64,000 bases of DNA from Siphonodentalium dalli (taxonomy: Eukaryota; Mollusca; Scaphopoda; Gadilida; Siphonodentaliidae), in assembly GCA_032622095.1 (NCBI GenBank), contig CP136061.1:65785127-65849126 (forward strand), read 5' to 3'. Below, piece by piece: positions 2,257 to 57,452 of the stretch (positions within the stretch are counted from its first letter, which is position 1; the number at the start of each line of letters is the position of its first letter). The position numbers were made by a program, and so were the translations under genes. The notes below the pieces were generated by a model. That model was not told where the DNA came from. It did no database searches and saw only the letters and a list, made by a program, of their open reading frames with translations.

Positions 2257-3900
2257 TTACGACTCTGGGTATTCACTGACATAAGTTCGCATCCGTAGAG
2301 CGCTTTGGGCATAACAACAGACATCAGCAGGGACATCATAGTCAAGGGAGAACATGACTTCATCAGGTCTTTTCCAACCAAGGCGAAGTAACACAGTCAA
2401 GTCAGTTGCTCGGTTAGAGTCAGTTTGGAACTTGGAATGTATTATTCCTACGTGTACACGTGACGATGTTTCTAATATCGGCTGGCTACCTAGGAACCAT
2501 TGTCTGTCTCGGATCTCGTGCTGTCGTTTCGTCTCATTGAAAGTAATCACTACACTTTATGTGTCAGAAAAACTGAAACGCCACAGTCGACTGTATTGAA
2601 AGCATAGTTCCAGTAAGCGATCCATTCCAGCTTTTGATATAGAAAGTAGGACAATGTCATCTGCTGCTGTCGGTGCGGCGCACTTCACCTGTCCCATTGA
2701 AAAACCACAGCCCGACGAATTCAAGTCTTTCAACAAATCGTTTATGAAGACGAGGTAGAAGAAAGGGGAGCAGACAGCCCCCATACATTGATCCCTGTTT
2801 AACATAAAGAGTGTGTGAAAGTCCATTGCAATGCAGCATACGGCTAATGCAGTCTGAGTACATATTAGCCACAACACGTATGATCTTGCCACAGAAACCT
2901 AGTTGGTGTAGTTTCACTAAGAGACCTTCATGCCAGTCTCTATCGAATGCCTTGGCTGAGTCCAAAAAGCATACATATGCACGGCTGTCAAGGTCACCTA
3001 TATAATGGATGAACTCTTGTACCAGACATGCATACATTGGGCAGCTAACACCTTTCTGGAATCCATGCTGCAATTCGTGTGGAAACAAGCCGATGCCACC
3101 GTCATTGAGAAATCTATTTAGGAGAATGCATTCAAATACTTTAAATACAACAGATAGTAATGTTATGGCTATGTAGCTGTCTGGGAAATGCTTTGGCTTA
3201 GGTTCGCCTTATAGTATATCGCCACAATGATTCCGGTTTTCATTGAAGGCGGAATCCATTCCAGCTTCAGAATTCCGTTAAACAGGCGGCACAATGCGTT
3301 CAGCAGTGATGTACATGTACTTCCATGATGCTTATTCGTGATCTGATCAATGCCACCTGACTTGTTACGCCTCAGGCTTTGCTGATGATACGTCAAAGTT
3401 ACTTATAGGCTAGCAGAACAGATCAGAGTTAAATTCGGGGTGAGACTTGTCGAACAGTGAATTCAGCTGTGAACAAATGTTTTTCTCAAAATCTGGATCA
3501 CCATGAACAGGGGGAGTGCACAGTTTCTCAAAGCATGTTCTCAATCCTTCCATGGTGTCGTCGTGGTCACGAATTGGTCTGCCATCAAAGTTCATAACGG
3601 TACCAAAGATAGCAGATTGCGGTGAAAAACAATTTTTTTTCAATATTTTCCAGAATAGTTTTTGGTCATTGATAGCACAACATTCGATGTTTTCACCTTT
3701 GCGTTGTTCCTGTAAATGAGCTGCGGAGCGCACTGATCTTCTAAACGATCGTTTAGATTCTTTGTAGTGCAAACGACCTGGCACTATAGTCTATAAGCGT
3801 GGGGACGACCATCCGCTATTCACATCGTATACGCTTCTGTTTAACATCGGAATGCAGTTTACGTAGTTCGTCATTCCAGAAACTTTTACGGGACTTGTGC
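2257..3900 (-). pseudogene. degenerate non-LTR retrotransposon (LINE) reverse transcriptase fragment
   Basis: Read on the minus strand, several overlapping frames give ordered pieces of a LINE reverse transcriptase: a pre-RT segment (KSRKSFWNDELRKLH near 3840-3900, then FWKILKK), a Lys-Ser-Gly-Gly-Ile-Asp segment, IPPSMKTG, HGFQKGVSCPM, then FLDSAKAFDRDWHEGL (the A-box aspartate), SPFFYLVFINDLL, and AADDIVLLS. A late ..MPKALYGCEL segment follows near 2280-2330. The pieces lie in different frames and are broken by stops, so the copy is dead. The catalytic box reads AADD rather than the usual Y/FADD. No endonuclease domain is visible; the copy is 5'-truncated, as is normal for LINEs. The order of motifs resembles jockey/CR1-type elements, but the clade cannot be fixed by eye. 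Confidence 0.85.
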
Positions 3901-17767: not shown

Positions 17768-18151
17768 AACATTCTAAGTTATTGTAGTGGTTTGATGGTA
17801 AGATGGTGTGACATTCTAAGTTATTGTAGTGGTTTGATGGTAAGATGGTGTGACATTCTAAGTTATTGTAGTGGTTTGATGGTAAGATGGTGTGACATTC
17901 TAAGTTATTGTAGTGGTTTGATGGTAAGATGGTGTGACATTCTAAGTTATTGTAGTGGTTTGATGGTAAGATGGTGTGACATTCTAAGTTATTGTAGTGG
18001 TTTGATGGTAAGATGGTGTGACATTCTAAGTTATTGTAGTGGTTTGATGGTAAGATGGTGTGACATTCTAAGTTATTGTAGTGGTTTGATGGTAAGATGG
18101 TGTGATATTCTAAGTTATTGTAGTGGTTTGATGGTAAGATGGTGTGATATT
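17768..18151. repeat. 42-bp minisatellite, 9 near-identical copies
   Basis: Unit acattctaagttattgtagt + ggtttgatggtaagatggtg + tg. Nine copies run head to tail; the only clear difference is gacatt to gatatt in the last units. A 42-bp period keeps a frame open as nine 14-residue repeats (ILSYCSGLMVRWC-D), which explains the 141-residue open frame without needing a gene. Near identity implies recent expansion or active homogenisation. Confidence 0.97.
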
Positions 18152-19689
18152 GACGGCTTAGACTTTTATGTTCAACCGAGTAGCGGTTAGCTATTTATGT
18201 GACAGTTTGTACTGCAGTTCTGAGGCAAAAGTTGTGGAATTCCAATATTGTCAGTGGAAGGGGACGATAAAAAAGTTACACACAGTGGAGATATTCATAT
18301 TGCTTATAGCAGCATTAGTGGGGGGGATAGTTGCAAAATCGTTCACTTTGTGATAGAAGCGCCAAACTTTCAGAGTTTGTTAAGTGGTTGGTGAGTATCA
18401 CTAAACTGGCTGGTTCCAGATTTTGGAGGTCACCTTGACCTTAAATTTGACCTTGACCTTTTTGAAAATCTCAGTTTTTGGGTTGGGTGGTTTATGCCAT
18501 CCTTTTCTTGTGAAAATCGCATCTTCTCACAGTTTTCTCAATACTATTATAGTTGGGAGTTGACCACGATTCATTTGGGCCAAAACATATCTCAATTTTC
18601 ATAAGATGGCTGCCAATATGGCCGCCGGAAGTGGAAAATATGACATTTTTTCACAAATATCTTCTAGTTCAATTCATGCTGTTTGTAACTGGTTGAGTAA
18701 TGCAACTTTATTTTGTGTTTTGTATATTAACCGATCATTGGAGCAATTAAATATGCAATTATTGTGGTCCTAGCCCCTTCCGATCCCTCAAAACTTCGAT
18801 TTTACGGGATGCCATATAAAATTCCACAAAAAAATCACAATTGGGATTCTAGTCATATTTCAACAAGAAATGAACATAACTTTGTAATGTAAGTGAGGCA
18901 TATCATTACCTATGAATATTCCAAATCACTGGAACCAAAATTCTTACTTTGGCTCAAAATGGCTGCCAATATGGCCGCCAAAATATGGAAAATGGTAAAT
19001 ATTACACCAGCGTCTCGTGCAATCGTTTGCAAGTTGTGGTTGATGTATAAAATTGGCAATTCTGCATTCTATACATTGAATACTAAGATGTCTGATGCAC
19101 CATGGTTAATTATTACTATTGTCACCACTGACATCGTCAAAAATATTGGACTTTTCTCTCAAAAACTTGACATAAATATTGGCAAAAATTAACTTTTCAG
19201 GTTTGGACCATTTTTTCAGGTAAAATGTAACTATCTTTGGATTGAAAAGTGTTTATTGTTTTGGTCTCTCTCAAATGTGTCTCACTGCGGTGTTTATAGA
19301 CCAAATTGCTCAAGATGGGTTCCAAAATGGCAACCAATTTTTTTACATATATCCTGAACATTCTCCGCATTATCCGAAAATGTAGCAAAATGTGACTCAC
19401 TTGGTTATTATACGTGTTAGTTAATTAACTGACAACTAAATGTTCTATTCTGGTTGTCCCACTTCCGTATGGGGCAAAATAAATTCATTTTAAAGTATGT
19501 AATTTTGCCGAGCACCTCTTTTGTGATTTTGGCCATAGTTATTGAAAGGAAATGGGCAGAACTTTGAGACAGAATTGAGATGGACCATAATATTTGGCTA
19601 TTCTGGTCCATTATGCTAAGAAAATGTCAACTGAATACAGTGTGGATGCCAAGATCGTAGCCAGGGAGTTACTCTATGATCATACGTGG

Positions 19690-21290
19690 GGTGAATAGGT
19701 ATACAGTGAGTTATTGTATGGCATGACTTATGTGAATAGGTATACAATGAGTGACTATATGGTTATGAGTGGGTTGTCCATTGTAAGATGCATCTATGTA
19801 TACAAGGAGATGTCATGGTCAGGTGTGAGGTGAATCGGTATGCACGGAGTGACTATGGTGTATGATTGTGTATATCCAGTACGGGTGCACCAGGTGTGCC
19901 TGTATGGGCATTGGTGTTGTGTATGGATATAGCTACATGGTCATCTATGTGTTGATTATGTATATATGGAATGACTGTAAAGGCATGGGTGGGATGTACA
20001 TGTGTTGTCTGTATGATCATGGATGGGTGTGTTGCTAAATAGGGTGTGATTTTATGGTTACGGGTAATGTGTATAGGTATACATGGAATGACTGTACGGT
20101 CATGATTGAATATGATTACCTGGAGTAAGCTCGGTGGACATTATCGAGTGAGTGGGTATATAGGGAGTGTCCTTGTGGTAACGGGTGGGGTGCATATTTA
20201 TATATTTCATGAATGTATTATCATTGGTGTGTGTATAGGGATTGGCTGTATTATCATGGATGGCATGTATGATTATACAGTGAATTGCTGAATTGTCATG
20301 TGTGAGGTGTATATGCAAGTATGGATTGTTTGAGTGGTTGTGTGTATGTGTGGAAGAGCTGAATGGCCATTAGTGAGGTTTACTTGTATGATTGGAGTGA
20401 ATCTATGGTCTAGGGTGGGTTGTATATGTATATCGATTGGTTATATGATTGTGTGTGTGAATAGGTATACAGGGTGTTATTGTATGGTCAATGGTGAGAT
20501 GAGTACATGTAGGAATACAAGTAGTGACAGTATGATCATAAATTTAATGGACATCTATACAGGGGGTGACTATTAAAATGGTCATGTGTCAGGCGTATGA
20601 GTATACCTGGTGTTCCTGTTTGGTGACTCGTGGCTGTATGGTCATGTGTAGGTTATACCAGTATACACATGTGTTGCTTTATTGGCATGGGCAAGGGATA
20701 CGTGTATATAGCAAGTGGCTATATGGCCATGGATAAAGTGCATATGCATACATGGAGTGACTATACTGACATGGCTGGGGTGTATTAGTATATATTGAGT
20801 GACTATGCGGATACAGGGAGTGAAATGGCCAATGTTGAGGTGAATATGTATGCAAGGATTGACCATGGTCGTGTATGAATGTTTTGAATAGGTACACACG
20901 GTGTGACTATATGGCCATAGGTCAGGTACCATTGGTGAAGGTATGTGTATGAAGCGAGTGGCTATATGGCCATTGGTGAGATGCATATGTAAACCCGGAG
21001 TGACTTTATGGTCATTGTTGATGTATATATTGATTTATTTGACCACGTGTTTGGAGAATAGGTATACAGGGGATGACCTTATGGCCAATGGTGAACTGAA
21101 TGGGTATACAAGGAATGACTATATGGTTATCGGTCATGTTTAGGAGTATCCCCGGTGTGCCTGTATCGTGACGTGTGGCTGTAATGTCACCCGTGGTTAT
21201 GGGTCAGGTGTACATGTATACAGTGGGTCACTATATTGTTATGTCTGTGGTGTTTATGTATAGGTGGCCATCGTTTTCCGTGTTTAACGC
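19690..21290 (+). repeat. inner satellite of the fold-back element, forward units
   Basis: About 1.6 kb of strongly degenerate units of roughly 45-65 bp built on gaataggtatacagtgagtg, actatatggtcatg and ggtgaggtgtatatg. Numerous open frames on both strands are repeat artefacts. Confidence 0.8.
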
Positions 21291-21960
21291 CCCCATGTAT
21301 ATAAACACCATCAAGATAGAGAACTCCCTGACATGACCTCTCCATTGATTAACATATCATTGAGTTATTGCGCCACCCAAGGTACACATGTACAACCCGC
21401 CCATGACCTCAGTCACTCCATATGTACATAAACACAACACAAATGACAACATAGTCACCCACTTTATACACGTACACCTGATCATACAGCCATACTTGGT
21501 TATACCCGTACATACCACAAATGACGATACAGCCACGAGTCACCATGTATAAACACCAGGTATACACATACACCCGACACATGGCCATATAGTCACTCTA
21601 TGTATACATATTCACTACATTCACGATCATACGGTCACGCGTTGTATACATATTCACCTCACCATGGACTACACAGCCACTAGATGTATACCTATTCGCC
21701 ATATCCATTACCATAGAGTCAATCCAGGTATACATATGCACATCACCAATGGTGAGCCCTTCCAGATATACCAATACCCGCACATACGACCTCTCATAAG
21801 TTCCACACTTGCCATACTCATGATCATGCATCTACTCCCCATACACCATCAATGATAACACATCCACAACATATATAAATATACAACCCACCGTTGCCAA
21901 CAGGGCACTCCCCATATACCCACACATCATCCATGACCATACAATAACTCGCGGTATACA
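21291..21960 (-). repeat. inner satellite of the fold-back element, inverted units
   Basis: The same units in inverse complement (catgaccatatagtcactc, gtatacatattcacct). Only about 0.67 kb against 1.6 kb on the other side, so the two satellite blocks have changed copy number independently. The switch of orientation lies near 21280-21300. Confidence 0.8.
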
Positions 21961-23743
21961 TATTATCCTCATCTACGATCATAGAGTAACTCCCTGGTTG
22001 TCATCTTGGCTTCCATCCTGTATCCAGTTGATAATTTTTTATCATAATGGGCCAGACTACCCACATCTCATGGTTCATCTCATTTCCGTCTCAAAGTTCT
22101 GCCCATTTCCTTTCAATAATATGGCCATAATCACAAAAGAGGTTATCCGCAAAATTCCATACTGCAACTTTAAAATGAATTTGTCATGCCCCATACGTAA
22201 CTAGGATAAACATAATAGAACATAGTTGTCAGATAATTAACTAACAGGTATAATAACCAAGTGAGTCACAATTTGCTACCTTTTGGGATAACGCAGAGAA
22301 TAATTTTCTGGATATGTGTAAAAAATTAACTTTTTACAAATTTGGTTGCCATTTTGGAATCCATCTTCAGCAATTTAGTCTATAAACACCATAGTGTGAC
22401 ACATTTAAGATAGGTCAAAACAATAAACACATTTGATACCAAAGGTAGTTGCATTCTATTTGAAAAAATGGTCGAACCCTGAAAAGTGATTTTTTGCCGA
22501 TATTTATGTCAAGTTTGTGAGAGAAAAATCCAATATATCTGGTGATGTCAGTGGTGACAATAGTAACAATGACACATGGTGTATCAGACATGTTAGTATT
22601 CAATGTATAGAATACAGATTAGCCAATTGTATACATCAACCACAACTTGTAAGCAATTGCATGACACCCTGGTGCAATATATACAATTTTCCACATTTTG
22701 GCAGCCATTTTGAGCCAGGGTAATATTTTTGGTTTCAGAGAGTTGGAATATTCATAGGTAATGATATGCCTCACTTGCATTACAATGTTCTTTTCATTTC
22801 TAGTTGAAATATGACTAGAATCCCAATTGTGATTTTTTTGTAAAATTTTGTATCGCGTTCTGTAAAATCGAATTTTTGAGGGATTGGAAGGGGTTAGGAC
22901 CCCAATAATTGCTCCAATGATCAGTTAATATACAAAACACAAAATAAAGTTGCATTACTCAACCAGTTCCAAACAGCATGAATTGAACTAGAAGATATTT
23001 GTGCAAAAAATGTCATATTTTCAACTTCCGGCGGCCATATTGGTGGCCATCTTATGAAAATTGAGATATGTTTTGACCCAAATGAATCGTGGTCACCTCC
23101 CAACTATAATTGTATTGAGAAAACTGTGAGAAGATGCGATTTTCACAAGAAAAGGATGGCATAAACCACCCAACCCAAAAACTGAGATTTTCAAAAAGGT
23201 CAAGGTCAAATTGAAAGTCAAGGTGACCTCCAAAATCTGGAACCAGCTAGTTTAGTGATACTCACCAACCACTTAACAAATTCTGAAAATTTGGCGCTTC
23301 TATCACAAAGTGAACGATTTTTATGTTTTCCTGTAATTATCCCCCCCACTACATAGTTATAAGTATTGTAGATGAACTATATACACTGTAGGCTATAGTT
23401 TACAGTATGCATGCATGTGCACAACACATGCATGTACATGCATGCAACGTTAGTGTATATTACTGGAAATTAGCAGAGCCTTAATTGCAAAAAGTGATGA
23501 GGGCTTTGTTTAGATACTGCATGAAACCGGTAGGAATAAAATATGCTGCGGTTTTCTACTGGGGACTTTAAATCATTTGTAACATTTGTAACACTTGGTA
23601 ACACCCGTCTACGAGCGGTCTCTCTGGTATCTCAGAAAATAGGGCGGTTCTCACTTATGATAAGGAGTGTCTAAATTCTGCCGATAATAATGATTATACT
23701 CTAACTAAACAATTGTAACATTTGTAACACTGTTACAAAATGC

Positions 23744-32950: not shown

Positions 32951-33015
32951 CATTATACCCAAATATCATACTCGTTTCTCTGGAAAGAATTAAATGTTTT
33001 CTCTTCTTTCGTCAG

Positions 33016-33279
33016 GTTTTTACAAACTCCAAGTTATGGTGCTACCGAATCCTGTCCTTGCTGTGTGGCATTCCAGCGGCTTTGCTGTGGGGCATTAATT
33101 TCGCCTGCATCGCCTTCTGTCATATTTGGTGCTGTATGCCATGTATGAAGCTGTACGAAGTTGACATGGTTTGCATCAAGAAATTCTGGTTCGGCTGCCT
33201 GGATACATTCATGAGGCCATGTTACGAAAATATGGGGTATTTGTTCTACAACATCCGGGTTTTTGTTCACAAAGAGTGA
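33016..33279 (+). CDS. caveolin, exon 3 (residues 74-160, stop TGA)
   Basis: Starts after TTCGTCAG in phase 0 and ends at TGA 33277-33279. It completes the scaffolding-like segment (VFTNSKLWCYR, residues 74-84). Next is the intramembrane hairpin (about 85-113) with the conserved GIP at 91-93 and WG at 98-99, CHIW at 108-111, then MPCMK. A C-terminal amphipathic region ends YNIRVFVHKE, aligning with the family's SNIRINLRKE-type tail. The 160-residue total is within the usual 150-180. Cysteines at 82, 90, 104, 108, 112, 113 and 116 are plausible palmitoylation sites; clustering of Cys around the hairpin is denser than in CAV1. Product: caveolin. Paralogue type unresolved. Confidence 0.96.
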   Translation, partial: VFTNSKLWCYRILSLLCGIPAALLWGINFACIAFCHIWCCMPCMKLYEVDMVCIKKFWFGCLDTFMRPCYENMGYLFYNIRVFVHKE

Positions 33280-56640: not shown

Positions 56641-57452
56641 GGTGTCATCGATTCATATTTATTGTTTTATACCCTGGAATCTATATAAAACTTACTGGGT
56701 GTCATCGATTCATATTTATTATTTTATACCCCGGAAACTGTATAAAACTTACTGGGTGTCATCGATTCATATTTATTATTTTGTACCCCGGAATCTATAT
56801 AAAACTTACTGGGTGTCATCGATTCATATTTATTATTTTATACCCCGGAATCTATATAAAACTTACTGGGTGTCCTCGATTAATATCTATTGATTCATAT
56901 TTATTATTTTATACCCCGAAATCTATATAAAACTTACTGGGTGTCTTCGATTCATATTTATTATTTTATACCCCGGAATCTATATAAAACTTACTGGGTG
57001 TCTTTGATTCATATTTATTATTTTATACCCCGGAATCTATATAAAACTTACTGGGTGTCCTCGATTCATATCTATTGTTTTATACCCTGGAATCTATATA
57101 AAACTTGCTGGGTGTCCTCGATTCATATTTATTATTTTATACCCCGGAATCTATATAAAACTTACTGGGTGTCTTTGATTCATATTTATTATTTTATACC
57201 CCGGAATCTATATAAAACTTACTGGGTGTCCTCGATTAATATCTATTGATTTATACCCTGGAATCTATATAAAACTTGCTGGGTGTCCTCGATTCATATC
57301 TATTGTTTTATATCCTAGAATCTATATAAAACTTACTGGGTGTCTTTGATTCATATTTATTATTTTATACCCTGGAATCTATATAAAACTTACTGGGTGT
57401 CTTCGATTCATATTTATTATTTTATACCCAGGAATCTATATAAAACTTGCCA
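56641..57452. repeat. 57-bp minisatellite, about 14 copies, in U2 intron
   Basis: Unit ggtgtcatcgattcatattt + attattttataccccggaat + ctatataaaacttactg. Variants tcatcg/tcctcg/tctttg/tcttcg and ccccgg/cctgg; two units carry a ctattgatt variant. The 57-bp period equals 19 codons, so two + strand frames stay open as 19-residue repeats (..IYYFIPRNLYKTYWVSSIH..); this is periodicity, not coding evidence. Lies wholly between two U2 exons. Confidence 0.97.

Follow-up and report, generated by a model that had tools for sequence, protein, structure and literature searches.

Our analysis shows that a stretch of the genome of the scaphopod mollusc Siphonodentalium dalli carries a copy of a foldback DNA transposon of the non-autonomous kind, a reading to which we would give a probability of roughly nine in ten. 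The stretch, hereafter the window, is 64,000 bp long (C1:65785127-65849126, in a genome of 2.23 Gb on 9 contigs). Self-comparison of the window places the 5036-bp foldback element at 18316-23351, where the arm at 18316-19744 aligns with the inverse arm at 23351-21915 at 85.5% identity across 1466 alignment columns (reported E of 0). A foldback architecture with inverse arms had been proposed in an earlier, sequence-only reading of this DNA, and the self-alignment confirms it. The limits given there, 18317..23350, stop one base short of the element's true bounds on each side, and the arms, put at ~1.3 kb, measure ~1.43 kb. The element ends are TAGTGGGGGGGATA...TATCCCCCCCACTA, with the terminal letters 5'-TAGTG...CACTA-3'. 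The 14-mer TAGTGGGGGGGATA occurs exactly at 18316-18329 and, on the opposite strand, at 23338-23351; the rest of the window has no further occurrence, even when up to 2 mismatches are allowed (at 2 mismatches, 0.38 occurrences are expected by chance, and 2 or more were seen in 5 of 100 shuffles). Between the arms lie two diverged repeat blocks of period 42, themselves inverse to each other, whose self-match at lag 42 is 39% and 38% against a mean of 28% over lags. Nearly all of the 5036 bp is thus a single lopsided palindrome, with long inverted arms over most of its length and tandem repeats within, as in foldback elements. Its parts are as follows.

18313..18315, no strand: left target site duplication, CAT (from flank comparison)
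18316..18329, plus strand: left terminal inverted repeat TAGTGGGGGGGATA, L-type, followed by GTTGCAAAATCG (52 exact L-type ends genome-wide)
18316..19744, plus strand: left outer arm, mostly non-repetitive, no coding capacity found (from self-comparison, reading frames and Pfam scan)
19650..21265, plus strand: left inner domain, diverged tandem repeat of period 42, GT-rich strand
21275..21995, minus strand: right inner domain, inverse 42-bp repeat type, AC-rich, shorter than the left
21915..23351, minus strand: right outer arm, 85.5% identical to the left arm, inverse
23338..23351, minus strand: right terminal inverted repeat, R-type, with ATTACAGG next inward (60 exact R-type ends genome-wide)
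23352..23354, no strand: right target site duplication, CAT (from flank comparison)

A separate array lies ~165 bp upstream of the element, at 17769-18151: a 42-bp unit repeated nine times almost without change (99% matches), with one open frame per strand (185 and 146 codons from stop to stop). We considered it as kin of the inner repeats and claim no link: the period is equal, yet a score this high is reached in 11 of 100 shuffles.

The insertion sites give evidence of mobility. Our sample consisted of 20 fetched loci and the window, and 16 of these keep both ends (with a G/C run of 7 or 8). Identical 3-bp duplications flank 15 of the 16, L028 being the one without, so that the target duplications which the sequence-only reading had named as a check on mobility are indeed present. 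The window copy lies between CAT and CAT; the other triplets are TGA, CAT, TAG, CTA, TTA, AAC, ATA, ATA, CCA, TTC, TAT, TAA, TTT and CTT. A and T make up 35 of the 45 letters, as compared with 62.5% in the window, which is at most a weak lean. An empty site was also found: when the sequences on either side of L027 are put together with one triplet kept, they align over 120 bp to a paralogue in L022 that is uninterrupted; there is one mismatch, and CTT stands once. Extended to 600 bp, the alignment is 95.9% identical. This match is the signature of a precise insertion with a 3-bp duplication. Many copies, fixed ends, a target duplication and an empty site are therefore all in hand, as is expected of a mobile foldback transposon.

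The other copies, anticipated in the sequence-only reading, were recovered with the element's first 184 bp as the query: there were 630 candidates, and each of the 40 scored matches it at 99-100% identity across 180 bases or more. Genome-wide, the 14-mer end occurs 62 times per strand, against once per strand for the reversed control. Seven of these 124 ends lack the family's next bases; they include at least one mutated copy of the family, L034. When the TAGTGGGG ends are split by the bases that follow, we obtain 112 typed ends, 52 exact L-type and 60 exact R-type, with 0 for the reversed-pattern controls. Pairing neighbouring ends that face each other at most 30 kb apart joins L with R in all 34 inward pairs, never L with L or R with R; pair lengths are 3313-6108 bp (5009-5131 bp in 25 of the 34), and 44 typed ends are left unpaired. 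Same-ended copies number dozens in total and are present on all 9 contigs. More diverged relatives lie in the flanks of L011, one 83% identical over element positions 288-1769 (the arm and the start of the inner domain) and the other, in the opposite flank, 71%. Two ends, C4:54505135 and C7:33215441, were set aside as chance ends in another repeat: they are mutually alike, and their similarity to the family stops at the 14-mer. Locus L033 (C5:55545057) belongs to an older repeat family (580 candidates, 40 scored) with an internal TAGTGGGGGGGATA-like motif. To the eye its motif type, ATGGCTGCC...CCGCCAT, is that of the element's arms, and it may be a distant relative; it was rejected as an end of the present family, since in three relatives (L066-L068) the motif sits within a longer repeat and not at an end.

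Pairwise comparison of 17 copies reveals subfamilies of different ages. Seven copies form a young cluster (L017, L018, L020, L021, L026, L027 and L028; 99.3-99.8% alike), and L009, L011 and L025 form a trio (98.8-99.1%); the window copy is 96.0-97.0% identical to the 16 others, and the lowest value for any pair is 95.8%. In the majority sequence of the 17 copies the arms differ by ~10%. Because this is far more than the 1.3-2.3% by which copies differ from the majority sequence, the fold is older than its copies. In 15 of the 17, the diagnostic sites are L throughout the left arm and R throughout the right, barring scattered single sites. L026 has a short L-type patch in its right arm, and the right arm of L014 is L-type over its outer 0.9 kb, where it is 96.9% identical to L014's own left arm; this copy joins an R-type stretch to an overlapping L-type stretch and, at 5443 bp, is longer than usual. 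From the tip inward, arm identity in 100-bp bins runs 97, 100, 99, 100, 94, 93, 91, 88, 90, 87, 92, 90, 89, 82 and 74%. Divergence between copies (14 of the 17; L014, L019 and L026 were left out) is 1.5-1.6% in the outer 400 bp and 1.2-1.8% in the inner arms. Among the bins of the right arm, the one at the tip diverges least (0.43%). Its counterpart in the left arm stands at 0.57%, a value biased by the choice of copies with the first 184 bp, and two inner left bins match it (0.36% and 0.50%). Since arm identity falls from 97-100% to 74% inward while divergence between copies stays level, the pattern suggests that sequence near the ends is copied from arm to arm.

The sequence-only reading saw no transposase in the element, and our results agree: no stop-to-stop frame in the region exceeds 130 amino acids, and the 5 arm frames scanned (of 49 listed) match no transposase family in Pfam, giving only weak matches below the cut-off. 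The interiors of 17 of the 34 pairs were read through (14 fetched loci, the window, L029 and L030), the other 17 being known by their spacing; all 17 read belong to the family, some in deleted or rearranged form. At isolated ends we sampled 200 bp ~2 kb inside, which is too small to exclude a coding interior in every copy. In a first set, of isolated 14-mer ends, 20 of 26 showed family sequence there; the six that did not comprise two chance ends, one end (C4:128160673) that keeps just 132 bp, and three rearranged or shortened family copies. In a second set, family sequence was present at 2 kb in 15 of 17 and at 0.3-1.2 kb in the other two. In all, sampling or fetching covered 43 of the 44 unpaired typed ends; for the remaining one, C7:180558285, a family match lies 5 kb away. 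C4:128160673 was considered as an autonomous partner and rejected: its 132 bp of left arm, at 99%, give way to unrelated sequence with no frame above 125 amino acids, and no right end occurs within the 9.8 kb fetched. It reads as a truncated copy.

Based on the fixed ends, the left/right pairing, the 3-bp duplications, the one precise empty site and the subfamilies with their young cluster, we propose the following mechanism. A transposase made elsewhere, which we did not find, would act in trans and would recognise the ends, that is, TAGTGGGGGGGATA together with some sequence behind it. By cut-and-paste chemistry the element would be cut out and inserted at a 3-bp staggered cut. Copying from arm to arm, proceeding from the ends inward, would keep the tips near-identical while the inner arms drift. 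Several observations weigh against this picture. At five of the 21 loci (L010, L011, L013, L016 and L022) an end is altered or missing, and these were left uncounted. No coding interior of an autonomous partner was met in the 17 of 34 pairs read or at the sampled unpaired ends. For arm copying, the evidence comes from a single majority sequence plus two copies; of the latter, L014 is a rearrangement and not a clean tract of conversion. Singleton variants occupy 6-8 sites per 100 bp in the outer 400 bp and 11-16 farther in, which makes constraint on the outer arms possible.

FB of Drosophila and TU of the sea urchin have giant inverted arms with satellite-like parts, and the target duplications of FB are longer than 3 bp. 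Set beside the element by description, both are alike in these arms and parts; they are mentioned in PMC4079207, which, like the other papers cited here, we use in excerpt. The nearest structural parallel is Tetris of Drosophila virilis, a foldback transposon with 8-10 bp duplications, an inner repeat of ~220 bp and three structurally complete copies (PMC4079207). As described in that excerpt, Tetris shares the long inverted arms, the outer flanking domain, the inner tandem repeats, the lack of a conserved open reading frame and an autonomous partner that was not found; unlike it, our element has 3-bp duplications, a diverged 42-bp repeat and 34 pairs of exact ends. Galileo, a Drosophila member of the P superfamily, has arms of 0.3-1.2 kb, 7-bp duplications and a P-type transposase (excerpt of PMC3573991); long arms, internal tandem repeats (in one Galileo subfamily), arm-length dynamics and chimaeric copies are common to both, whereas the duplications here are 3 bp and no transposase was found. 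Regarding a P-type transposase, the copies read contained no coding interior, and no search aimed at the P-element family was made. The 3-bp duplications in 15 of 16 copies match neither the 8-10 bp of Tetris, a Mutator-type foldback element, nor the 7 bp of Galileo and the P superfamily, and on this ground we keep the element apart from both. The sequence-only reading had named FB and Galileo-type transposons as parallels; the foldback form with a satellite-like interior stands, and membership in a Galileo-type family is not supported. The element's ends agree with none of the families against which they could be compared. The family appears new as far as the literature we searched goes, it may be catalogued in Repbase or Dfam, and we leave its superfamily open. 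Among the literature matches listed, no transposon paper was found by title for the string TAGTGGGGG, and no foldback literature on molluscs or bivalves contained the element, judged by title and start of abstract.

It is an evenly balanced question whether the element is a non-autonomous member of a known superfamily with 3-bp duplications, most plausibly Zator or AcademX, moved by that superfamily's transposase. The AcademX transposase carries an XPG nuclease. The XPG nuclease domain (XPG_I) gives 7 matches in this genome, which form no multi-copy family, the nearest lying 3 Mb from any of the 112 typed ends. Duplication lengths fit (3 bp for Zator, 3 or 4 bp for AcademX; excerpt of PMC10045372), and members of both are known from molluscs, almost exclusively from bivalves in the set surveyed (excerpt of PMC10294476). 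The comparison with the element is by description, not by termini, and no transposase was seen here; for Zator, the related bacterial family PF07592 has 0 genome matches, but it also detected 0 of 14 controls, so this result is uninformative. We hold it doubtful that the ends TAGTGGGGGGG and the motif-free 3-bp duplication mark instead an undescribed transposase lineage whose arms are renewed by copying that fades from the ends inward; if this were true, a hairpin far older than its copies would stay mobile.

Less likely still is a derivative of the CACTA/EnSpm or PIF/Harbinger group. CACTA elements begin with 5'-CACTA and have 3-bp duplications; the duplication length agrees, whereas our element ends with CACTA. 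EnSpm-type transposase domains are abundant in the genome (78 matches), but 83 kb separate even the nearest of them from the closest of the 112 typed ends. The PHIS group also includes 3-bp duplications, with the triplet motifs TWA for PIF/Harbinger, ANT for Pangu, CWG for NuwaI and TNA for NuwaII (excerpt of PMC4482050); among our 15 triplets these occur 2, 0, 0 and 3 times, respectively, so the TWA of PIF/Harbinger is not the rule here, though no search aimed at a Harbinger transposase was made. As a separate observation, twelve EnSpm-type transposase matches, with one TAG inside each, lie within ~5 Mb at C7:18.9-24.0 Mb.

For a transcript of the element, a very long hairpin, as the sequence-only reading envisaged, is strongly predicted; if made, such RNA might feed small-RNA production or ADAR editing. 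The predicted fold of the element has an energy of -2815 kcal/mol, compared with -1366 +/- 11 for 8 dinucleotide shuffles, and contains 2070 pairs, of which 1275 run from arm to arm; 18 perfect helices are at least 21 bp long and the longest is 101 bp. This stability would suit a hairpin locus maintained by the host as a source of small or edited RNA, but the dispersal of a mobile family over many sites and the ~10% difference between the arms in the majority sequence make such a locus very improbable. Almost no weight is left for a local inverted duplication or palindromic amplification, which the sequence-only reading had allowed for should copies and duplications be lacking: arms just 85% identical and the lack of a recognised transposase would fit it, but dozens of same-ended copies on 9 contigs, the 3-bp duplications and the empty site refute it.

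The nearest recognised host coding sequence lies outside the transposon, 9.7 kb downstream on the same strand.

33007..33261, plus strand: caveolin-like exon, Pfam PF01146 positions 46-130 (from Pfam)

At least 27 caveolin matches occur in the genome (among the matches listed), all on C1, and the profile start is 16-23 in 25 of these 27, 46 in the window exon and 79 in a weak fragment. It is as if the first coding part of the window caveolin lay in another exon. Motif scans found no caveolin exon upstream, which is weak evidence of absence. The placement in caveolin intron 1 given by the sequence-only reading is not established; the element could sit within an intron or ahead of the caveolin gene. 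Many caveolin matches cluster near 111.2 and 226-229.8 Mb of contig 1, a local gene expansion. Elsewhere in the window are a reverse transcriptase domain fragment at 2660-3208 on the minus strand (PF00078, E 3e-8), a remnant resembling a long interspersed nuclear element; a neighbouring frame at 3413-3790, also on the minus strand; and a tandem array at 56641-57448 with a 57-bp unit in ~14 copies, for which a 114-bp period scores better.

Researchers have long asked how foldback elements originate and how their arms are maintained. With dozens of clean-ended copies, subfamilies of varied age, left and right arm identities that are mostly fixed and an inward decay of arm identity, this family makes arm copying separable from selection. 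Its copies also spread giant hairpins, as predicted structures with duplexes of more than 1 kb, across the genome, and these would provide a natural test set for the processing of double-stranded RNA.

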